64,000 nt of DNA from assembly GCA_003586115.2 (NCBI GenBank), contig QVOM02000126.1, positions 11,812,056-11,876,055 on the forward strand, given 5' to 3'. How positions within the stretch are numbered: the stretch's first letter is position 1; every line of letters begins with the position of its first letter. Both the position numbers and the translations under genes were made by a program. Origin of the DNA: Salvator merianae (lineage: Eukaryota > Chordata > Lepidosauria > Squamata > Teiidae). Positions 1,629 through 59,030 of the stretch are shown in pieces. The notes beneath the pieces are model-generated. The model searched no databases. It was given only the letters and a program-made list of their open reading frames with translations, and was not told where the DNA came from.

Positions 1629-2275
1629 GGGCCTTTTTGCACTTTCCACCTTGGAATGTTCGTATCCGGACATTCCAAGCTGGAACAATCCCCGTGGTGT
1701 GGTGGCCATCCGCACTGCGAGGGCTGGAACAACACAGAAATGGGCTGCAATGTGAATGCTGGAAGCCCCACCACAACAGTGGTTGGATAAATTTCTGGCT
1801 GCTGCCATGGTGACCAGGCATGTGGCATGTGGCATGCGTCTGCACAGCCGTGCCGTGCCGTGGCCTGCAGTGTTCGCGCTGGGAAGTGGATGCAAATGTT
1901 GAATACCAAAAGCAGTCCAGCTGTTCCCAATACAGCTTTGGAGCGCAATTTTGTGCTCCACGGCTAGTAGTAGCAATCGGGAGTGCCTGTAGCCACTGCT
2001 CCCAATCGCTTGGGTGTCCACAAAATGTGAAAGTGCTTCATTACTGAGTGTACCGACACCAGTGACGGCCCGTGACTTTAAGGGCGGGTGTTTGTGCTCT
2101 GCGCAAAGTATGCCATGGCTGTTTGCGGGGCCTCCGGGCCTCCATACTGCAGTACGGAGGCCCAGAGGCCCCGCGAAGAGCCATAGCATGCTTTGCATGA
2201 GGTGCAAACACCCGCCCTTAAAGTCACGGGCCACCGCTGGCAGACACCCACTAGCATGTACGCGCGAACAGGCCC
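1629..2275 (+). mobile_element. HPM group A element carrying a nested PAL-hAT
   Basis: It starts GGGCCTTTTTGCACTTTCC and ends CGCGCGAACAGGCCC, flanked by exact TTG repeats at 1626-1628 and 2276-2278. The first stem-loop, at about 1650-1677, pairs TTGGAATGTTCG with CGGACATTCCAA. The typical group A body follows (GGCCATCCGCACTGC, GGGCTGGAACAAC). The right half is interrupted at 2060 by a palindromic hAT element. A 220-codon open frame on the minus strand runs through both elements and I regard it as accidental. Confidence 0.8.
2060..2239. mobile_element. PAL-hAT palindromic element, copy 1
   Basis: It starts CAGTGACGGCCCGTGAC and ends CCACCGCTG. The two halves are close reverse complements along most of the 180 bp, around a centre near 2147. 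Flanking 8-bp repeats are ACCGACAC and GCAGACAC (6 of 8 match). The terminal CAG..CTG, 8-bp duplication and lack of coding fit a hAT-type MITE. It lies inside a group A element, so it is younger than that element. Confidence 0.8.
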
Positions 2276-7907: not shown

Positions 7908-8040
7908 GGGCATTTTCTCATTTTCCATCTTGGAATTTTTGCAGTTGAACATTCCAAGATGGAACAGTCTTCATAGTGGGGTAGCCATCCGCACTGTGAG
8001 GGCTGGAACTTCATGGAAATGGGCTGGAACTTCACGAATA
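7908..8040 (+). mobile_element. HPM group A element, left-end fragment
   Basis: It starts GGGCATTTTCTCATTTTCC. A stem-loop follows at about 7926-7962 with arms CCATCTTGGAAT and ATTCCAAGATGG, then GGCCATCCGCACTG-type group A sequence. It breaks off after a short duplication of GGCTGGAACTTCA. Confidence 0.7.
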
Positions 8041-9252: not shown

Positions 9253-9663
9253 GTGCCTGTGTGCACTGGCACTGGTGAGCACCTGGACACTACAGGCACT
9301 CCTGGACACTCCTAGCTGTGGACCACAGAAACGTTGTCCACAGCTTACCCAGGAGCAGCAGCTAGATGGCTTCCGCTCAACAACATTCACACCATCTTCT
9401 GGCTGTGAACGCTACAAGTGGGAGACATGGCACAGCTTTGGCTGCACAGTTGCGCACTGTGTCCTGGTTGCCATGGCATTGGCCAGACATTGACGTGACA
9501 GCAGCCATGGTGCTCAGGCCTGTCATCTGGACTTTGAGTGCTGGTGGCCTGGTATGGGGCTGTTCTAGCCCTGAAAGTGCAGATGGCTGCCACGCCACTG
9601 GGTCTCTTCCAGCCTAGAATGGTATTGTTATACCATTCTAGGCTGTAAAGTGCAAAGAGGCCC
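9253..9663 (-). mobile_element. HPM group A element
   Basis: It is in reverse orientation relative to the copy at 1629. It ends AAGTGCAAAGAGGCCC. A perfect stem lies just inside that end at 9611-9644 (AGCCTAGAATGGTAT / ATACCATTCTAGGCT). The other end reads GTGCCTGTGTGCACTGG followed by a CACTGGTGAGCACC hairpin remnant. The 3-bp flanks do not match. Confidence 0.75.
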
Positions 9664-13959: not shown

Positions 13960-14735
13960 TGTGTCGCGCTAGACATGCAGTGCAAACCCTGGCTTACCTG
14001 CCTGGCTGGCAAAATGTAAATGAAGACACCTTGCTGGGGACTTCCAGGAGCTTGGCTGGCTCCCAGGAGTCTCAGCAAGGTAATGCCTCACCAGACACGC
14101 AGGTAAGTGAAGCTATCACAGAAAACCCAGTGTTGCTGAGAGATTTCCTACGATAACGATGCAGCGTGTTTTCTACACATTTGCACTTGAAAGGCCACGG
14201 GGATGTCTGGCAATCTTGCCAGGGGTGCATTGCAATCCCTGGCTTACTTGCACGACTCTTGAAATCACCTCATTGGGGACTTCCAAGAGCTTGGCTGGCT
14301 CCTGGAAGTCCCCAGCAAGGTGATGCCTCACCTACACAACTGATGAAATGCAAATGAAATCACCTTGCTGGGGACTTCCAGGAGCCAGCCAAGTGCTCAC
14401 TCCCCCTCTTTCCCCCCCTGCCCCTAGAGGTCTCCGGCAAGATGATGGCTCGCCAGATGTCCAGGTAAGTGAAGCTATCACAGAAAACCCAGCGTTGCTG
14501 CTGGATTTCCCATGATAGCAATGTAATAGGAGACATGCACTGCAAACTCCAACTTACCTGCACAACTCGTGAAATGCAAATGAAATCACCTTGCTAGGGA
14601 CTTCTAAGAGCCTGCCAAGTGCTCACCCCTCCCCTTTCCCCCCACACTTGGCTGGCTCCTGGAAGTCCCCAACAAGGTGATGCCTTGCCAGATGTCCAGG
14701 TAAGTGAAGCTATCACAGAACCTTAATGGGTCCAC
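13960..14735. repeat. Cluster of inverted-repeat units
   Basis: At least four diverged units contain CACCTTGCTGGGGACTTCC and, nearby, its reverse complement GGAAGTCCCCAGCAAGGTG. Several also carry CAGGTAAGTGAAGCTATCACAG followed by AACCCAGYGTTGCTG. Units begin near 13985, 14230, 14350 and 14560. A related AACCCAGCATCGTTGCTGG word lies at 22831. This looks like a cluster of foldback-type elements or a decayed local satellite, not coding. Confidence 0.65.
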
Positions 14736-26129: not shown

Positions 26130-26629
26130 GGGCCTTTTCGCACTTTCCTCCGTGGAATGTTCGATTGCGGACATTCCAAGGTGGAACAGCCCCCGCAGTG
26201 CAGTGGCCATCCGCACTGCCAGGGCTGGAACAACCCGGAAATGGGCTTCCAGCACTCGCAGTGCGACTGCCAGCCACCCCACCGCAACAGCGGCCGGGGA
26301 AACGTCCTGCTGCTGTCATGCTGCAGCTGAGCCGTGCAGCATTCGCACCAGGAAGTAGGTGTGAATACTGCATACCGGGAGCAGTCCAGCTACTCCCAGT
26401 ACAGCTGTGGAGCACAATTTTCTGTGCAGTTGCACCACTTGTCCCCAGTCACCATGGCAGCAGCCGGAAGTTTCCCCAGCTGTTGTTGTGGGGTGTGTGT
26501 GTGTCAGCATGCGCGCTGTGAATGCTGGCTGCCCGTTTCTGGGATGTTCCTGCCCTCACAGTGTGAGGACTGTTGCATCTTGGAATGTTCGACTGTGAAC
26601 ATTCCAAGATGGAAAGGGCAGAAGCACCC
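26130..26629. mobile_element. HPM group A foldback element
   Basis: It starts GGGCCTTTTCGCACTTTCC and ends near AAGGGCAGAAGCACCC. Unlike most copies, both ends are of the same type, so the outer 150 bp or so of each side pair. The left stem is TGGAATGTTCG/CGGACATTCCA and the right stem is perfect at 26577-26610 (ATCTTGGAATGTTC / GAACATTCCAAGAT). Flanks are TTG and TTC. Confidence 0.7.
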
Positions 26630-29364: not shown

Positions 29365-29895
29365 GTGGTGACACAGAATAGGGTCTTTTCAGTGCTGGCC
29401 CCCAGGCTTTGGAACAGCGTCCCTTTGGAGGTTTGCCAGGAGGCTACACTGTGTGGTTTTTGGTATCTGGTTAAATCATATATCTTTGCCAAGGCCTTTG
29501 ATGCAGCGGTGCCTGCCGGCTTTAAACCCAGTTGTTTGCACCCCGTGCAAAGCATGCCAAGCCTGTTCGCGGGGCCTCCGGGCCTCTGTACTGCTGCAGC
29601 AGGTCACCTGCTGTGGCAGTACGGAGGCCCAGAGGCCCAGTGAACAGCCATGGCAGGCTTTGCGCGGGGCGCGAACACCTGGGCTTAAAGCCGGCAGGTA
29701 CCACTGTGCGAACACCCGGGCTTAAAGCTGGCGGCTGCCACTGCTTTGATGTTTTCCTTTCCTTGAGTGTTGTCCTGCTAGGGAGGGAGGGTTATATTTT
29801 AAGCAAATTTTAATCTGTTTTATAGATACCCACTGGAACTTTCAAGTGAAGGATGGGATACGAATATCTGAATGAATGAATGAATGAATGAATCT
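29365..29895 (+). mobile_element. L2 LINE 3' end, split by a PAL-hAT
   Basis: The reading RVFSVLAPRLWNSVPLE, followed by a VKSYIFAKAFD motif, is the L2 ORF2 C-terminus. A PAL-hAT interrupts at 29504-29743. The 3' UTR resumes with TTTTCCTTTCCTTGAG and ends in a (TGAA)n tail at 29868-29893, the usual L2 terminus. Confidence 0.85.
29504..29743. mobile_element. PAL-hAT copy with duplicated right end
   Basis: It starts CAGCGGTGCCTGCCGGC and ends GGCGGCTGCCACTG. Exact 8-bp repeats CTTTGATG lie at 29496-29503 and 29744-29751. The last 37 bp or so occur twice in tandem (about 29671-29706 and 29707-29743), so it has two candidate right termini. The arms around the centre at about 29601 pair almost completely. 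Confidence 0.9.
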
Positions 29896-30698
29896 TCTCA
29901 AGGGATTCATATTATTTCTGAGAAGCAGTGGGCAGCCCTTGAGATCTTTCTCCCTCGTACTGGGGCGGGGGGGGGGTTGCTTTCCGGGCACCAATGAAAC
30001 ATCCACCCTTCCCTAGTGACACAACTTCTGTCCCTTTGCTCCTTAATTCCTCTGAGCGCATTTATGATCCCCATCTTTTCCCCCACCTTGCAAACTTTTT
30101 TGGTACTTGGGTTTTAATGTGAGTCGGTTGCTTGTTCTGAGCAAGGGAAAAAAAGGCCATCTGGGCCACTGGAAGGCAGTGGAGGTTGCTGGAAGGAACA
30201 GTGGTGTTCAGTCCTGGTTCTTGACAAATCTCCTGCCTTCCAGTGCAATAAGGTGAACAACCAAGCCCCCGCACTGCAAGCAGCATCCAGCGTGCTCCCC
30301 AGGGAGCAATGGCATTAAGCAACAATCCTTACCAAAAGATGCCCGGTGCTTTCCCGTTTGTTGATTAATGCTCCCTATTCTGTCTGCTTACTTGTTTCAT
30401 TTTATGTATTTATTAAATGTATATCCTGCCTTTCTGCTAAAAGATTGTGCCCAAGGCAGCTTCTAAAAAGGCTAAACAAAACGTGCTGGTTGGGCAGCTA
30501 CCATTCTGATGCAAATCCCCTTGCCCATAGAACCTCCTGCTGATGGGCTGGCAGAGGCTGGTTGAATAAATGTTCTTTTGCCAGAGGTCCAGCTAAGGAT
30601 GCTTCATCAGGTCCTTTCACCTGCCTGCCGTGCAACGTTTGGGTGGCACGAAGTGTCCCCAAGAGTCCATATTTTCTCACTAAACTATGAAGATAAAA
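29896..30698. other. Interval without recognised genes
   Basis: A G-run lies at about 29965-29975. Antisense TTATGTATTTATTAAATGTATATCCTGCC at 30397-30428 looks like a retroposon 3' end. Nothing else is supported. Confidence 0.4.
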
Positions 30699-30883
30699 AG
30701 GCCATTTTCACATTTACAGCAGTTCTAATTAGCAGGGTTCGGGCCGGCCAGGGTCTGGTACGGTGATGAGTATTCGCACTTGTCAGCAATAGAACAGTTT
30801 GCGAGCTGACCAGCAGGGGGAGCAGTGTGAATGGGAATGCACTAGTTAGGTAGCTGTGTTCGAACCCAGAGGAATCATACACT

Positions 30884-31599
30884 GAGCCTTTTTGCACTTC
30901 ACACTAGTGAGCGTCAGGAACGCCCACTAGTGAAGGGCTTTCGCACGAGAAGACAGCCGTAGTGACCGGCAGCAGACCCCATCTGCTGCCGATCGCTACT
31001 ACCGCTAGACAGGAAGGTAGCTGTCTGAATCCTGACCTGAAGCTCAAAGTGAGCTTCAGGTGAGGAGTCATTCACACCTACCTTTCTGTCCCTGGTGGCG
31101 GCCATCTTCTGGGCAATGCATCACATCTTCATGTGATCACGCAATGCATGCTGGGCAATGGAGTCCGGCGCTTCGCACGGGCCCGAATGGGCCTGTACGA
31201 GGCCCGAATGGACCCCATGCCGCCGCAATCAGGCCAGGGACACTGGACAAGGCGGCACTGCGCCCCGTCCGGCGTTCTGGTGCCCGATCGCGGGCGCGAA
31301 TGTTGGTCGCCGCGGCAGCGGCCTGCAAAATGTCAGGCTACTGGCAAGGCGACAGGGAGGACCGCGCGGCATGCCGTGATGATGTCATCACCGTGCGGGC
31401 CTCCCGGTCGCCATGGCAGCAGCTGACGCTTGCTGGCCACTGCGTGGCGACCATCAGGCCGGATGATGGCGTTCGGCGTTATCCAACTTGGGTTCTGTTC
31501 TCAGGCCCCATCGTGCAGACGGTGTCTGCACGATGGGTTCTGTTCCATGCTAGAATGTGCTAATTAGCACATTCTAGCGTGGACAGTGCGAACAGGCCC
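30884..31599. mobile_element. HPM group D element, long form (D1)
   Basis: It starts GAGCCTTTTTGCACTTCAC and ends CAGTGCGAACAGGCCC. Left stems: CACTAGTGAGCG..CGCCCACTAGTG, and a strong hairpin at 30960-30998 with CGGCAGCAGA/TCTGCTGCCG. Right stem: a 38-bp near-perfect palindrome at 31545-31582. The centre is CpG-rich (GCGCCCCGTCCGGCGTTC) and has no domain-bearing frame, so it is non-autonomous. High CpG suggests youth. The left terminal GGG is changed to GAG. Confidence 0.8.
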
Positions 31600-32153
31600 A
31601 ATCATAGAGTTGGAAGGGACCACCAGGGTCATGGAATCCAATGCAGGATTCACTAAACCATCCCAGACAGACGTCCGTCCAGCCTTTCCTTGAAGACCTC
31701 CAGCGAAGGAGAGCCCACCACCTCCTGTGGTAACCTGTTCCAATGACTGATTGCCCTGACGATCAGAAAGTTTTTCCTAATATCTAGCCTGTATCTACTC
31801 CCTTGAAGTTTCATCCCATTGTTTCTAGTCCTTCCTTCTTGCGCAACTGAGAATAGGGCCAATCCTTCTGCACTGTGACAGCCCTTCAGATACTTGAAAA
31901 CAGCTATCATGTCTCCTCTCAGTCTTCTCTTCTGCAGGCTAAACATTCCTAAGTCCTTTAACCGTTCCTCGTAGGACATGGTTTGCAGACCACTCACCAT
32001 TTTGGTCGCCCTTCTCTGAACTTGCTCCGGTTTGTCAATGTCTTTTTTAAATTGGGGTGCCCAGCACTGGACACAATATTCCAGATGAGGTCTGACTAAG
32101 ATAGAGTAATGAGGGATAATTACTTGTCATGATCTAGACTCTATGCTCCTCTT
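31600..32153 (-). mobile_element. CR1-a LINE 3' end
   Basis: The antisense tail AATCATAGAGTTGGAAGG directly abuts the D1 end. The minus-strand frame 31653-32000 (115 codons) reads the CR1 C-terminal tract (SLQKRRLRGDMIAVFKYLKG). It is 5' truncated after the CAGCACTGGACACAATATTCC segment. Confidence 0.92.
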
Positions 32154-32698
32154 GATATGAAACAGCTGCCGGGGCTGGACCCCAAATCCAAACCTGGGTC
32201 TGAATTGTTTGACAGCACCTGTGCGGCCACGCAGTCCCGGTCCTGTCACTATTCCACACCAGGAAGTGGTGCGAATGCACCTTTCCTGATCTGCACCTGA
32301 TCACACAAGTCAGCTTCCAGACTACAATTTTCTTGACCAGCACAATCCGGTTTCAGGTGAGCATCAGGTGGGCTTCGGTAGGTTTCAAGTCAGCTGAGGC
32401 TGTTTGCAGGTACGAACACTCATTACTAGCAAGTGTCCTGGAACATTCCATTTTCTAAGTGCGAACAGGCCCATAGTGTCCTTCATTTACCAGTTCATGG
32501 AAGTTAGAGACGGCTATCAACGGCTAACAGCTCTGATGGTAGCATGACTGTCTCTGGTAATAGAAGGTCGTTTGCACCTGAAGGCCAGGTGCTGAGAGGT
32601 TGTCACCAGGGCTGTTGCGTGTTCACGTCCTGCTATCAGGCTTCCTGGTGCAGCAGGTTGGCCACTGCAAGAACAGACTGGATGGGCCATGGGTCTTT

Positions 32699-32998
32699 GG
32701 GCCTTTTCGCACTTCACACTAGTGAGCATCAGGAACGCCCACTAGTGAAGTGCTTTCGCACCCGTGGACGCTCGTAGCGACCGGCAGTGGACTTGATCCA
32801 CTGCCGATCGCTACTAGCGCCAGACAGGAAGGTAGCTGTCTGAATCCTGACCTGAAGCTCAAAACGAGCGAACGCCATTATCCGGCTTGGGGTCTGTTCT
32901 CAGGCCCCATAGTGCAGATGGGGTCTGCACGATGGGGTCTGTTCCATGCTAGACTGGGCTAATTAGCCCAGTCTAGCATGGACAGTGCGAACAGGCCC
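32699..32998. mobile_element. HPM group D element, short form (D2)
   Basis: It starts GGGCCTTTTCGCACTTCAC and ends CAGTGCGAACAGGCCC, flanked by exact TTT repeats (32696-32698, 32999-33001). It lacks about 415 bp of the D1 centre, joining CCTGAAGCTCAAA to ACGAGCGAACGCC. The right stem at 32944-32981 is a perfect 38-bp palindrome. The left inner hairpin at 32775-32813 has CGGCAGTGGA/TCCACTGCCG, differing from D1 in paired positions. Confidence 0.88.
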
Positions 32999-33264
32999 TT
33001 TCTTAGGTTCTTATGCCTCCAGAGGTCAGTGGCTGGGAGGCTGTAAGTGGGACAAGCTGTGCACTCATGTTCTGCTGGTGGGCCTCCATGTGCAACTGGA
33101 TGGCCACTGGGATAGAAGACGGCTGGACTAGATGGACCATGAGTCTGATCCAGTGGGGCACTTTTTATGGTCTTATGTGTTTGAAGACCAGCTGCTGGGA
33201 GACTATGAACAGGGCAAGCTATGTGTTCATATCTGGTGCACTTCCTTGAGCTGCTGCCTGGCAT

Positions 33265-34620
33265 GGTTGGAGGAAATGGATTTTCTAGACCCATTTCAAT
33301 CTGGTTTCAGGCAGGGGTTTTGCACATAGACTGCCTTGATTGCCCTGATGGATGACCTTTATTGTGGGAGGAACATTGGCAATGTGACCCTGTTAGTTCT
33401 GCTCAATCTCTCGGCGGCTTTGGATTCCATTGACCATGGTGTCTGGCTGGAGCAGCTTTGTGGATTGGAGCTAGGAGGCACTGTTTTACAGTGGTTCTCT
33501 TTTGATCCCTGAGGTAGACTCCAGAAAGTAGCAATGGGGAACTTTCGTTCAGTGCCCTAAGAACTTTCTTGTGGAGTTCCCCAGGAGGTCAGTTCTATCT
33601 CCCATGGTCTTCAACATCTATATGAAGCTGCAGGGAGAGGTCATCAGGAGTTCTAGAGTGAGGAGCCATCAGTACACTGATGACACCTAACTCTATTGCT
33701 CCGTTCTTTCTGAGTCAGGGGAGGCATTTAAGGTGCTCGGACATGCCTAGAAGTAGTAATGTACTGGATGTGGACCATAAATTGAAACCAAATCCAGGCA
33801 AGATGGAGATACTGTGGTCAAGGGGACTTGAATTCAGGAAGTTAGGGGGCACCTGATTCTAGATGTGTTCTTTTGTCCCGTCCCCCCCAGGGTGTGTTAT
33901 CTGGGGGTGCTTCTCAATTCATTTCTGCCTCATGAGGCTCAGGTGCCAGTGGTAGCCAGAAATGTTTGCTTCCATTTTGGACTTTCTTGTGTAGAAACAA
34001 CTTGGCCAAAGTGATCGATGCTCTGGTAACTTCTAGACTAGACTACTGTAATGCACTGTACATGGAGCTGCCCTTGAAGATAGTTTGGAACCTGGAGCTA
34101 GCGCAGAACGCAGCCGCTTGACTGCTGGTGTGAGTTTCTGGCTGGACACACAACATGCCAGTTTTAAAATATCTGCACTGGTTACCTATTTGCTACCATG
34201 CCCTATTCAAGGTATTGATGTTGACATATAAAGCCTTCAATCATTTGGACCCCAAATATCTGAAGGAGTGTCTCCTCCCATGCAGACCTGCCCAGCCATT
34301 AAGGCTGGAAAGGGAGGCCTTTCCTGTAGTTGCACCACCCACAGAGGCACAAGGCATGGTGGTATGCAAAAGAGCCTTCTCCGTGGTGACCCCCAGGCTT
34401 TGGAACAGCCTTCCTCTGCAAACATACCACATGCCAACATTATACAGTTTTCAGCACCTGGTTAAAACATATCTCTTCACCCAAAGCAATACCTGCCACC
34501 TGGTGGGGTGGAAGCAGTCACACAGGCAGGGAGTCTCAGCTCTGAGTCTTGTTTGTAGCTCTAGAATGCAATGCCAACAATAATGGACCATCTTGTCCCA
34601 TGACTCTGACAAGCAAAATC
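33265..34620 (+). mobile_element. L2 LINE ORF2 relic and 3' end
   Basis: Reading in several frames, the region gives ordered L2 reverse-transcriptase blocks: FQSGFRQG, a LSAAFDSIDH tract, VPQE and VFNIYMK, and a HQYTDDT block (the catalytic YADD motif degraded to YTDD). It then has the long C-terminal frame 34155-34583 with YLHWLPICYHALFKV and AFSVVTPRLWNSLP. Frameshifts near 33510 and 33740 show inactivation. It is the longest LINE relic in the window. Confidence 0.85.
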
Positions 34621-35989: not shown

Positions 35990-36184
35990 CAATGATGGCC
36001 GCTGGCTTTAAGCCTGAGTGTTCGCACCCCGCACAAAGCATGCCGTGGCTGTTTGCGGGGCCTCCGGGCTTCCATACTGCCACAGCTGCTGTGGCAGTAC
36101 GGAGGTCTGGAGGCCCCACAAACAGCCACGGCATGCTTTGCGCAGGGTGTGAACACCTGGGCTTAAAGCCGGCGACTGCTGCTG
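35990..36184. mobile_element. PAL-hAT palindromic element
   Basis: It starts CAATGATGGCCGCTGGC and ends CGACTGCTGCTG. Exact 8-bp repeats CTTATTAT lie at 35982-35989 and 36185-36192. The two halves pair around CAGCTGCTG near 36088, with GGCCTCCGGGCTTCC against GGAGGTCTGGAGGCC. Confidence 0.9.
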
Positions 36185-45417: not shown

Positions 45418-45786
45418 GGGCCTTTTTGCACTTTTCACCTTAGAACAGGAGAATTATCCCGTTCTAAGGTGCAACAGACCTTGCAGTGGGAAAGCCAGAG
45501 CGAATGCTGGTGGCCTATGCCATGACAGCAGCTGGGAACACTTCCAGCCTCTGCCATGATGACTGGGAACGTTGCACAACTGTGCAGCCACAGCTGCCGC
45601 CACCCATGCCACCCTGTGTTTGCACCCAGAAGCGGGTACAAATGCAGTGCACCAGTGTACACTTTTGTGTTCCACAGCAGGTAGTGATCGGGAGCAGCTG
45701 GAGTCTGCTCCTGATCGCCGGGACCTCCACATGGTGAGGATGCACTTCACTAGTGAGCTCACTCGTGTAAAGTGCGAACGGGTCCC
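45418..45786 (+). mobile_element. HPM group A element
   Basis: It starts GGGCCTTTTTGCACTTTTC and ends AAGTGCGAACGGGTCCC. The flanks are AAA and AAG. The left stem at 45436-45471 pairs CACCTTAGAAC with GTTCTAAGGTG. A right inner stem pairs GATCGGGAGCAG with CTGCTCCTGATC. No coding. Confidence 0.75.
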
Positions 45787-53176: not shown

Positions 53177-53379
53177 CAGCAGCGGCCCCTGGCTTTAATC
53201 CCAGGTGTTCGCGTCCTGCGCAAAGTATGCTATGGCTGTTTGCGGGACCTCCGGGCCTCCGTACTGCCGCAGACGGCAACCTGCTGCGGCAGTATGGAGG
53301 CCCGGAGACCCCACAAACAGCCATGGTGTGCTTTGCGCGGGGCGTGAACACCCAGGCTTAAAACCAGCGGCCACCGCTG
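53177..53379. mobile_element. PAL-hAT palindromic element
   Basis: It starts CAGCAGCGGCCCCTGGC and ends GCGGCCACCGCTG. Exact 8-bp repeats CAATTAAC lie at 53169-53176 and 53380-53387. Pairing arms include CCTCCGTACTGCCGCAG against CTGCGGCAGTATGGAGG. Confidence 0.93.
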
Positions 53380-55870: not shown

Positions 55871-56311
55871 GCTATTTGGTGCAAATGCCAAATTCAAAGG
55901 GCCTCCAAATTCCATAGGCGTCATTTTCAAAATACATTTCTGAAAGCAACCCGTCAAACTTAAAAGGAAAAACAGCTCTTTCATTTCAAACATTCAGGAA
56001 CTCTTTCATTTAGAACATTTTAACTTGATGTAGCTCAGGTTCAGTGTTTCCTCTAAGGATATGCAGGCGGAATAAACAAGGCTCTACTCATGAACCGGGA
56101 GCTGGTCCTTTGGCTCATACTTTTCCTGGGTCTTTCTGGCAGCCATATCCCCAGTCTCCTTCCTGCATTCCCCATCCCACTCCTGCTGGATTCCTTGCAT
56201 CTGAAGTGTTTTCAAAGCAAGCCAGCTCAAGGTAGTTTACAGCAGCCAACGATCAAGGCACAAATATTCTATATGAAATAGAATTAAATACAAGTGTGCA
56301 CTCTGTCTCTA
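55871..56311. other. Interval without recognised elements
   Basis: No family or exon is recognised. Confidence 0.4.
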
Positions 56312-56534
56312 AGAGCCCAGCCACACCTAAGTTTTATTTCAGCTTCAGTCCACTTTTGGATTGAAAGAACACATCAGCAAAGTGACTCATCGTTTTCTTT
56401 CCACATTATCTAACCCACAGGTGAATTTTCTGAGTTAGATAATAATGAGAGAAAACACCTTATTACTTCAGTGATGTGTTCTCTCAGTCTGAAAGTGGAC
56501 TGAAGCGGGATTAAAATTTAGGTGTGACTAGGCT
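56312..56534. mobile_element. Foldback MITE, unassigned family
   Basis: The left arm AGCCCAGCCACACCTAAG and right arm TTAGGTGTGACTAGGCTT pair. Pairing continues through CAGCTTCAGTCCACTTT against AAAGTGGACTGAAGCGGG and GAACACATCA against TGATGTGTTC, to a centre near 56425. I cannot fix a target duplication. The termini differ from the HPM and hAT groups. Confidence 0.7.
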
Positions 56535-56552
56535 TTAATAGATGAAAACCGA

Positions 56553-58577: not shown

Positions 58578-59030
58578 GGGTCTTTTCACACTTGTTGCTA
58601 GCAAGCATCAAACATGCTTGTTAGCCAAGTGCCTCCGCCCTTTGCAGAGGCCTGAGCAGTTAGAAGTGGGCAACAGCCGCTCCTGATCGCTTCTAGCTGT
58701 CGAGAACTAATTTGTGCACCACAACCTTACCGGGAGGTGATAGTCACCTCCTGATAAGGTGCATTTGCACCTACCTGGACGCGTGATGACCAGGCCAGTG
58801 CGATCAACCAATTGTGCTTGCACAATTGCCTGATCATGCCTGCATGTTTGGCTGATTGTACCTGCACAACCCTGTGTACTGGGTGGCCCTGCCAGTTGCC
58901 AGGGCATGGCTATCTGGTTCAGGTAGGAAACCAGGGCCATGCAGCGCAGACAGTGTCAAAGCTGCATGGTCTATTCCACCTTAGAATGGGATAATTTCCC
59001 CATTCTAAGGTGGAAAGTGCGAAAACACTC
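58578..59030 (-). mobile_element. HPM group A element
   Basis: It starts GGGTCTTTTCACACTTG and ends AAAGTGCGAAAACACTC, flanked by exact TCA repeats at 58575-58577 and 59031-59033. The left stem pairs GCTAGCAAGCAT with ATGCTTGTTAGC. The right stem, at 58976-59013, pairs CCACCTTAGAATGGG with CCCATTCTAAGGTGG. A short-period CCTGATCATGCCTGCATG region sits in the middle. Confidence 0.82.

Follow-up and report, generated by a model that had tools for sequence, protein, structure and literature searches.

Subterminal stems whose arms change together in a hairpin-rich, PIF/Harbinger-like transposon family

Described systems and the present family

The importance of folds in hairpin-rich non-autonomous transposons, as function or as by-product, is hard to test. 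The nearest precedent that we found for transposon stems that differ while remaining paired is DINE-1 of Drosophila, a MITE or Helitron-like element, in which, according to the accessible text of its description, a stem near the 3' end differs between species and is inferred by the authors to be kept by compensatory mutations (PMC2374699). The same text gives insertion between TT dinucleotides and a stem of 7-11 nt (PMC2374699), whereas the family described here has many long stems, a relative with a DDE transposase, and changes within one genome that admit a timing test. No other precedent for both-arm change in Harbinger or MITE ends was found in the available parts of the open-licence literature. 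In prokaryotes, the HUH elements IS200/IS605 and REP are described, in the portions of the sources at hand, as having subterminal secondary structures that are recognised by the transposase; these elements use single-strand chemistry, whereas the present family has terminal inverted repeats (TIRs), target duplications and a DDE transposase relative.

Among DDE elements, the transposition of PIF/Harbinger needs the transposase and an ORF1/Myb protein, and yields 3-bp duplications at an extended target preference, as given in the accessible sections of two reports (PMC2836001, PMC9710019). PIF/Harbinger and the Tourist-type MITEs (mPing, zebrafish Harbinger3N_DR) are like our family in their 3-bp duplications, a short TIR starting with GG, non-coding derivatives, and a DDE_Tnp_4 transposase with a Myb/SANT domain nearby. 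The Pangu group of the PHIS superfamily, as far as the available text extends, also resembles it in having ANT duplications, which are the commonest class here but not the only one, and in a TIR that often starts with GG; its second ORF is without known motif, whereas a Myb/SANT domain lies near the transposase of our family's relative, and its hosts are insects, an arachnid, a mollusc, cnidarians, fungi, a heterokont and algae, with no vertebrate listed (PMC4482050). Hairpin reading by a DDE, PIF/Harbinger-like transposase was not met in the accessible portion of the literature on such elements, and the words "hairpin" and "subterminal" are absent from PMC4482050 and PMC9921582. In the present case, one genome supplies thousands of copies, a transposase-bearing relative, subfamilies with paired changes, and resting copies as a mutational control. 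Selection for the fold would mean that a cut-and-paste DDE transposon works on folded DNA; copying of the arms during movement would mean that transposition itself rewrites the element.

The family was met in a window of 64,000 nucleotides of Salvator merianae, the whole stretch of DNA that was analysed. Its right-end pattern, CTGTTCCA N28-50 GGACAGTGCGAACAGGCCC, had 287 exact matches in the 2.05-Gb assembly and a looser right-end design had 2,610, with 0 matches for reversed control patterns. The distance between paired ends was mostly 650-770 bp or close to 300 bp, and identical 3-bp flanks were present at 37 of 58 paired ends, some of which are nested or mispaired. The family is a young, abundant, non-coding, PIF/Harbinger-like DNA transposon, the body of which is largely a chain of hairpins. 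We call it PIF/Harbinger-like because it has the TIR GGGCC and 3-bp duplications and because the left end of a transposase-bearing relative is homologous; as in MITEs and other non-autonomous elements, the copies are short, TIR-bounded and numerous, and the 733-bp body is judged to be non-coding from its length. It differs from the PIF/Harbinger Tourist-type MITEs in its hairpin-rich body and in its duplications: the class in narrow-sense PIF/Harbinger is TNA/TWA, and TAA in mPing, whereas ANT was the commonest class (20/46) and TNA occurred only once (1/46) among 46 pairs picked for identical flanks. A Helitron was ruled out by the TIRs and 3-bp duplications, since Helitrons have no TIR and no target duplication, and end in CTRR. 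Insertions favoured a palindromic target, ANAC-ANT-GTNT, among the 46 terminus pairs chosen for identical 3-bp flanks (loci L001-L060 and the window).

In a DDE_Tnp_4 search, 150 of 391 candidates were scored, and all 150 matched. The left end of one of them, locus L064, aligned with the non-coding element at 78% identity over 294 columns, and was followed by an open frame with PF13359 (2.4e-34), which looks partial. A Myb/SANT domain (PF13837, 1.3e-8) lies in L091, on the same strand and about 2.6 kb downstream of the L064 transposase. No right terminus of the L064 element was found up to C692:117300, so that the Myb/SANT domain only possibly belongs to the same element, which may be very long or carry nested insertions. 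GC-rich repeats were seen between the transposase and Myb/SANT domains (C692:109820-117300; L064, L091, L092). We also checked the other 29 transposase loci for termini, about 1.5 kb on each side; two had a terminus at ≤1 mismatch (L070, upstream of its gene, and L087, in the opposite orientation), three had only a 3-mismatch terminus, and 24 had none, so that the link between transposase and terminus rests on L064. The nearest named proteins were those of the gecko Eublepharis, at about 47% identity, followed by a worm lizard, another gecko, and turtles.

Stems and folding in the window

The preliminary description had reported stems just inside a shared terminus, with different sequences and conserved pairing, and all five that it quoted are present (Table 1). 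The stem at 32944-32981 is perfect as claimed, with 19 of 19 pairs, and is contained in a slightly longer palindrome, while that at 31545-31582 has 18 of 19 positions paired, with the single mismatch reported. Two others had also been called perfect, which is true of their arms and not of their centres: 9611-9644 has 15 of 17 positions paired, with perfect 15-nt arms around a 4-nt loop, and 26577-26610 has 14 of 17, with perfect 14-nt arms around a 6-nt loop, and is flanked only by a degraded terminus. The fifth stem, 58976-59013, has 17 of 19 positions paired, with 17-nt arms at 100% (58974-59015) and an 8-nt loop.

Table 1. Coordinates of the elements, target duplications and stems in the window
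Feature	Position	Strand	Remarks
300-bp non-autonomous element with the stem 32944-32981	32699..32998	+	shorter form of the ~733-bp element; TIRs GGGCCTTTTCGCAC / GTGCGAACAGGCCC; identical TTT flanks; fold z -12.56
Left target site duplication TTT	32696..32698	.	
H1, left subterminal stem	32709..32753	+	outer helix, 2-nt asymmetry, inner helix; described in the family's common form, coordinates read off the window sequence
H2, second left-end hairpin	32769..32819	+	arms 32769-32791 / 32797-32819, 91% complementary
H4, second right-end hairpin	32901..32941	+	predicted fold; position read off the sequence
H5, right subterminal stem, haplotype A (ACTGGG/CCCAGT)	32943..32982	+	perfect 40-bp palindrome; 20-nt arms 32943-32962/32963-32982, 100% complementary; stops 2 bases short of the 14-bp right terminus GTGCGAACAGGCCC (32985-32998)
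Right target site duplication TTT	32999..33001	.	
Longer-element copy, 716-bp, haplotype B right stem	30884..31599	+	fold z -17.55; flanks ACT / AAT, no clear duplication
Right stem of the 716-bp copy, AATGTG/CACATT	31544..31583	+	one mismatch
Right-type stem, older subfamily (AGCCTAGAATGGTAT)	9607..9648	+	
Right-type stem (ATCTTGGAATGTTC)	26573..26614	+	adjoining terminus degraded
Right-type stem (CCACCTTAGAATGGG)	58974..59015	+	adjoins mutated terminus
Right-type stem, older subfamily	1644..1685	-	terminus 1629-1642
Right-type stem, older subfamily	45433..45474	-	terminus 45418-45431
Right-type stem	7923..7964	-	degraded terminus

The terminus GTGCGAACAGGCC, at ≤3 mismatches, had 60 matches in the window against 14.07 expected, and the stem scores at 27 termini (≤2 mismatches) exceeded those of 2,000 random window 62-mers (Mann-Whitney P 1.6e-4). 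The statement that most copies have the stem is too strong, since only 8 of these 27 good termini scored above the 95th percentile of the background; the same count in the window fails to show a strong hairpin at each terminus of the GTGCGAACAGGCC type. The CTGTTCC...GGAAAGTGC design accounts for exactly these eight of the 27, so that each of its ends in the sample has the stem, and the other end types with the same terminus had weak or no stems by the ungapped score in the window.

We then compared single-strand folds with dinucleotide shuffles. The 716-bp and 300-bp copies gave the z values in Table 1, and values for 14 random window 600-mers ranged from -7.4 to 3.6. For three further stretches with similar termini at their ends, z was -12.7, -6.1 and -1.4, and thus strong folding is not common to every stretch with these termini. 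The consensus of subfamily A had 78% of its bases paired in the predicted single-strand fold, which is closed by the terminal repeats.

Paired change in the stems

Among the 100 listed of the 287 exact matches, seven right ends had length changes, several of which, on visual inspection, resembled template switches in which a further inverted copy of an arm is inserted. The remaining 93 ends conserved the length, and in 87 of them two key pairs were in one of three matched combinations, namely ACTGGG/CCCAGT in 40 (A), AATGTG/CACATT in 31 (B) and AATGGG/CCCATT in 16 (C), with one mismatch in the other six. A broader test used 92 unique right ends, consisting of 48 mined ends (from 116, only those with gap 34 and recognisable flanks), 24 of the exact design, and 20 of the looser design (from 22 ends with letters). 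A per-pair, APC-corrected G test with tree-shuffled nulls, in the style of R-scape, found 0 of 20 pairs at E < 0.05 with all 92 rows and again 0 of 20 with 49 older rows, which counts against the claim for any single right-stem pair. The overall pairing of the right stem, by contrast, lay far outside a tree-based null that assumes equal rates across columns: the Watson-Crick fraction over 13 inner pairs was 0.850 against 0.469 (sd 0.083), and 14 both-arm changes kept pairing against 1.58 expected (maximum 5), neither value being reached in 200 nulls. Slid pairings of the arms gave at most 0.264 Watson-Crick and four both-arm changes, and in the 49 rows without the GCTAG haplotypes the fraction was 0.799 against 0.538 and both-arm changes were 11 against 1.63 (0/200 nulls each).

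The left stem was analysed in 66 ends (46 unique) of 143 mined, all of one fixed length, and the unique ends were paired at 0.774 against 0.623 (sd 0.059; 0/200 nulls). Its outer and inner helices are separated by a 2-nt asymmetry, and since the ends were picked at one fixed length, the asymmetry is kept among them partly by choice; it is also identical in A and L064, though pairs on either side have changed. For the whole element, an alignment of 46 rows (two of 48 were dropped) had 34 both-arm changes against 7.3 in 60 nulls (maximum 15).

Groups A, B and C were defined by two right-stem pairs, which therefore cannot count as independent evidence when the groups are compared. Elsewhere in the element, the A and C consensuses differed at both positions of four pairs in four helices, all four remaining paired (0.62 expected, P 0.0025), and had 17 one-sided differences; B and C had three such pairs, all paired (P 0.006), with 14 one-sided differences, and A and B had none, with 12 one-sided differences. 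Pairing is thus not strictly kept. In the comparison of A with L064, nine of ten both-changed pairs were paired against 3.36 expected (0/5,000 permutations as high), together with 18 one-sided differences. Three of the A/C pairs fall within the stretch compared with L064, which carries the C state at each, so that these changes probably occurred towards A. Furthermore, four of the six distinct pair changes among A, B and C are double transversions, and G-T intermediates are therefore not the main route. Where pairs differ, A mostly has G-C and C or L064 has A-T; this holds for all four A/C pairs with a difference in G+C, including one group-defining pair, and may reflect stronger stems in the sample's commonest subfamily or GC-biased repair. 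In addition, the element at +817 of L043 combines a haplotype A right stem with a body grouped by the tree with haplotype B, as if the short palindrome moved between element bodies as a block.

These comparisons bear out the statement that both arms change together, for the right stem and also for other helices of the element. The further claim that the fold itself is maintained agrees with the tree-based nulls for the right stem, left stem and whole element and with the consensus comparisons, and goes without support from the per-pair test; covariation was thus not significant pair by pair, and exceeded its null for the right-stem pairing as a whole. Covariation of this kind might also be phylogeny, with chance palindromes carried along by successful founders and stem blocks recombined among bodies. 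Such descent fits the per-pair result, and the A, B and C haplotypes do mark subfamilies, with stems shuffled among bodies; however, nulls on the same trees never reach the observed pairing or both-arm changes (0/200, 0/200, 0/60), and, outside the right stem, every pair changed on both sides between A and C or between B and C has remained paired. We regard it as very improbable.

The right stems also have a common conserved core, T.GA..G, and show complementary change at many pairs, the letters being free. The core would suit palindromic duplex sites for a dimeric protein, either Myb-like or the transposase, in which no hairpin forms and the half-sites drift with specificity; so would the Myb/SANT domain in the L064 region and the 9-bp subterminal motif that the Myb-like protein of Harbinger3_DR binds, according to the accessible part of the report (PMC9710019). 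We nevertheless take this to be improbable, as covariation with no fixed letters extends along the right stem and to several other helices, the left stem has its 2-nt asymmetry, and uncontacted positions of half-sites need not pair.

Timing of the changes and possible causes

We next placed the changes on the trees. In the right stem, both-arm changes fell on 11 internal and 1 terminal branches and one-arm losses on 33 and 89 (Fisher 3e-6 to 4e-5 in five reconstructions). Right-stem pairing is kept in moving lineages and lost in resting copies. The paired CpG sites of the right stem had decayed to T at position 9 in 24 and to A at position 40 in 15 of the 93 ends, and decay in both arms was found in 4 against 3.87 expected, as for independent events. 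Private mutations were counted in 29 of 42 full copies (divergence < 6%), at columns with consensus ≥ 0.8; there were 138 single changes and 3 double ones, against 3.07 expected from the site rates, the 4 B copies having no mutated column. Non-CpG private changes affected 62 of 6,805 paired and 47 of 3,935 unpaired columns (P 0.16), and thus substitution in stems and at unpaired sites was alike. With the most divergent copies still included, the 25 copies of subfamily A showed 17 private doubles where 11.68 were expected, and non-CpG changes were less frequent at paired (0.0208) than at unpaired columns (0.0335); B (10 copies) had 1 double against 1.1, and C (7 copies) had 15 against 2.86, all 15 of which were traced to one wrongly paired end set.

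The contrast was weaker elsewhere in the element. Without CpG columns, both-arm changes in the whole element were 8 internal and 5 terminal, against 23 and 162 for one-arm changes (P 1.1e-4); six of these internal and two of these terminal changes belong to the two right-stem haplotype pairs, which are shuffled among bodies, and when these pairs were also left out the counts were 2/3 against 23/162 (P 0.13). With CpG columns the counts were 11/23 against 102/488 (P 0.037), and the 23 terminal doubles exceeded a uniform null of 6.6 (maximum 13), 18 of them being changes from G-C to A-T, one of which remains without CpG columns. The left stem alone gave 3/1 against 21/23 (P 0.61). The timing evidence therefore rests on the right stem and the private-mutation test.

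The preliminary description had named template-switch correction of quasi-palindromes as an alternative that needs no selection. If this operated during replication in every resident copy, the two arms would be corrected against each other, and a private change in one arm of a resting copy would be mirrored in the other. It is a known process, by the available text of PMC8794818, and would account for the arm length rearrangements in 7 of the 100 listed right ends and for the doubles in subfamily A before divergent copies were dropped (17 against 11.68). As a general process in resident copies we reject it, because the CpG decays of the two arms are independent (4 against 3.87), and because in the less divergent copies the number of doubles is that expected of independent changes (3 against 3.07), with similar mutation at paired and unpaired columns. 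The right-stem both-arm changes, moreover, lie on internal branches, and five other long, undated palindromes of the window are far from perfect (see below). This alternative is thus quite improbable.

The absence of mirrored private changes, together with the doubles on internal branches, favours maintenance tied to mobilisation over steady template-switch repair, either as selection for the fold or as arm copying in transposition. On this pattern, the fold as such may assist movement of the element. The simplest cause would be that pairing is under selection during mobilisation, copies with broken stems founding fewer offspring, to which we tentatively give a probability of about 0.45; arm copying, the main rival, would look similar. 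Under such selection, the stems might form cruciforms or fold while the DNA is single-stranded, and their folding could zip up the interior and bring the two terminal repeats together, as in the predicted fold of the A consensus, where the terminal repeats pair and close the structure. The transposase and a Myb-like partner would then act on the normal terminal duplex, and the letters of the stem would be largely free provided that the arms match. Against pure selection stand the four double transversions among six changes, the length-changing rearrangements (7 of the 100 listed ends), and an identical mismatched left-stem pair carried by L034 and L058, from which a mismatched lineage may have transposed. 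A stronger form, in which the mobilised element is itself folded, is unlikely: the element would extrude, or a single-strand copy would form the hairpin chain, closed by the terminal repeats, and the transposition complex would need this fold, so that sequence would drift while the arms match and fitness would lie in pairing.

Arm copying tied to mobilisation would involve a fold-back at excision or during gap repair, with one arm resynthesised from the other, and newly moved copies would thereby gain matched arms without selection. This would account for right-stem doubles that fall on amplifying lineages and are in no excess among copies at rest, give double transversions (4/6) with no need of a wobble intermediate, and leave length changes such as those of the 7 in 100 listed right ends, several of them template-switch-like by eye; template switching is indeed described as making and keeping hairpins in RNA genes, in the sections of PMC8794818 at hand. 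On the other hand, such copying would tend to erase the 2-nt asymmetry of the left stem, which is kept between A and L064. The 17 unmatched one-sided differences between the A and C consensuses also persist outside the right stem, and the A/C changes form no tracts but are single pairs, each in a helix of its own, although some A/L064 changes are neighbours. We consider arm copying somewhat unlikely, and selection for pairing during mobilisation remains the reading that we prefer.

The window contains further inverted repeats. A perfect 35-nt inverted repeat (14290-14324 / 14359-14393, 34 nt apart), adjoined by a partial copy at 14264-14290, has no visible relation to the terminus GTGCGAACAGGCC over its whole extent, 14264-14393. 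Long imperfect palindromes with 87-112-nt arms, 75-86% complementary, lie at 2059-2240, 29504-29706, 36000-36174, 53177-53379 and 56306-56542; at least some of the five carry CCGCGAACAG-like sequence, and they may represent another, older palindromic repeat. An RNA gene was rejected as a candidate, since an Rfam search of 29500-34500 gave five sub-threshold microRNA matches at 29558-29654, outside the elements; sub-threshold matches to mir-3160 fall on 29563-29647.
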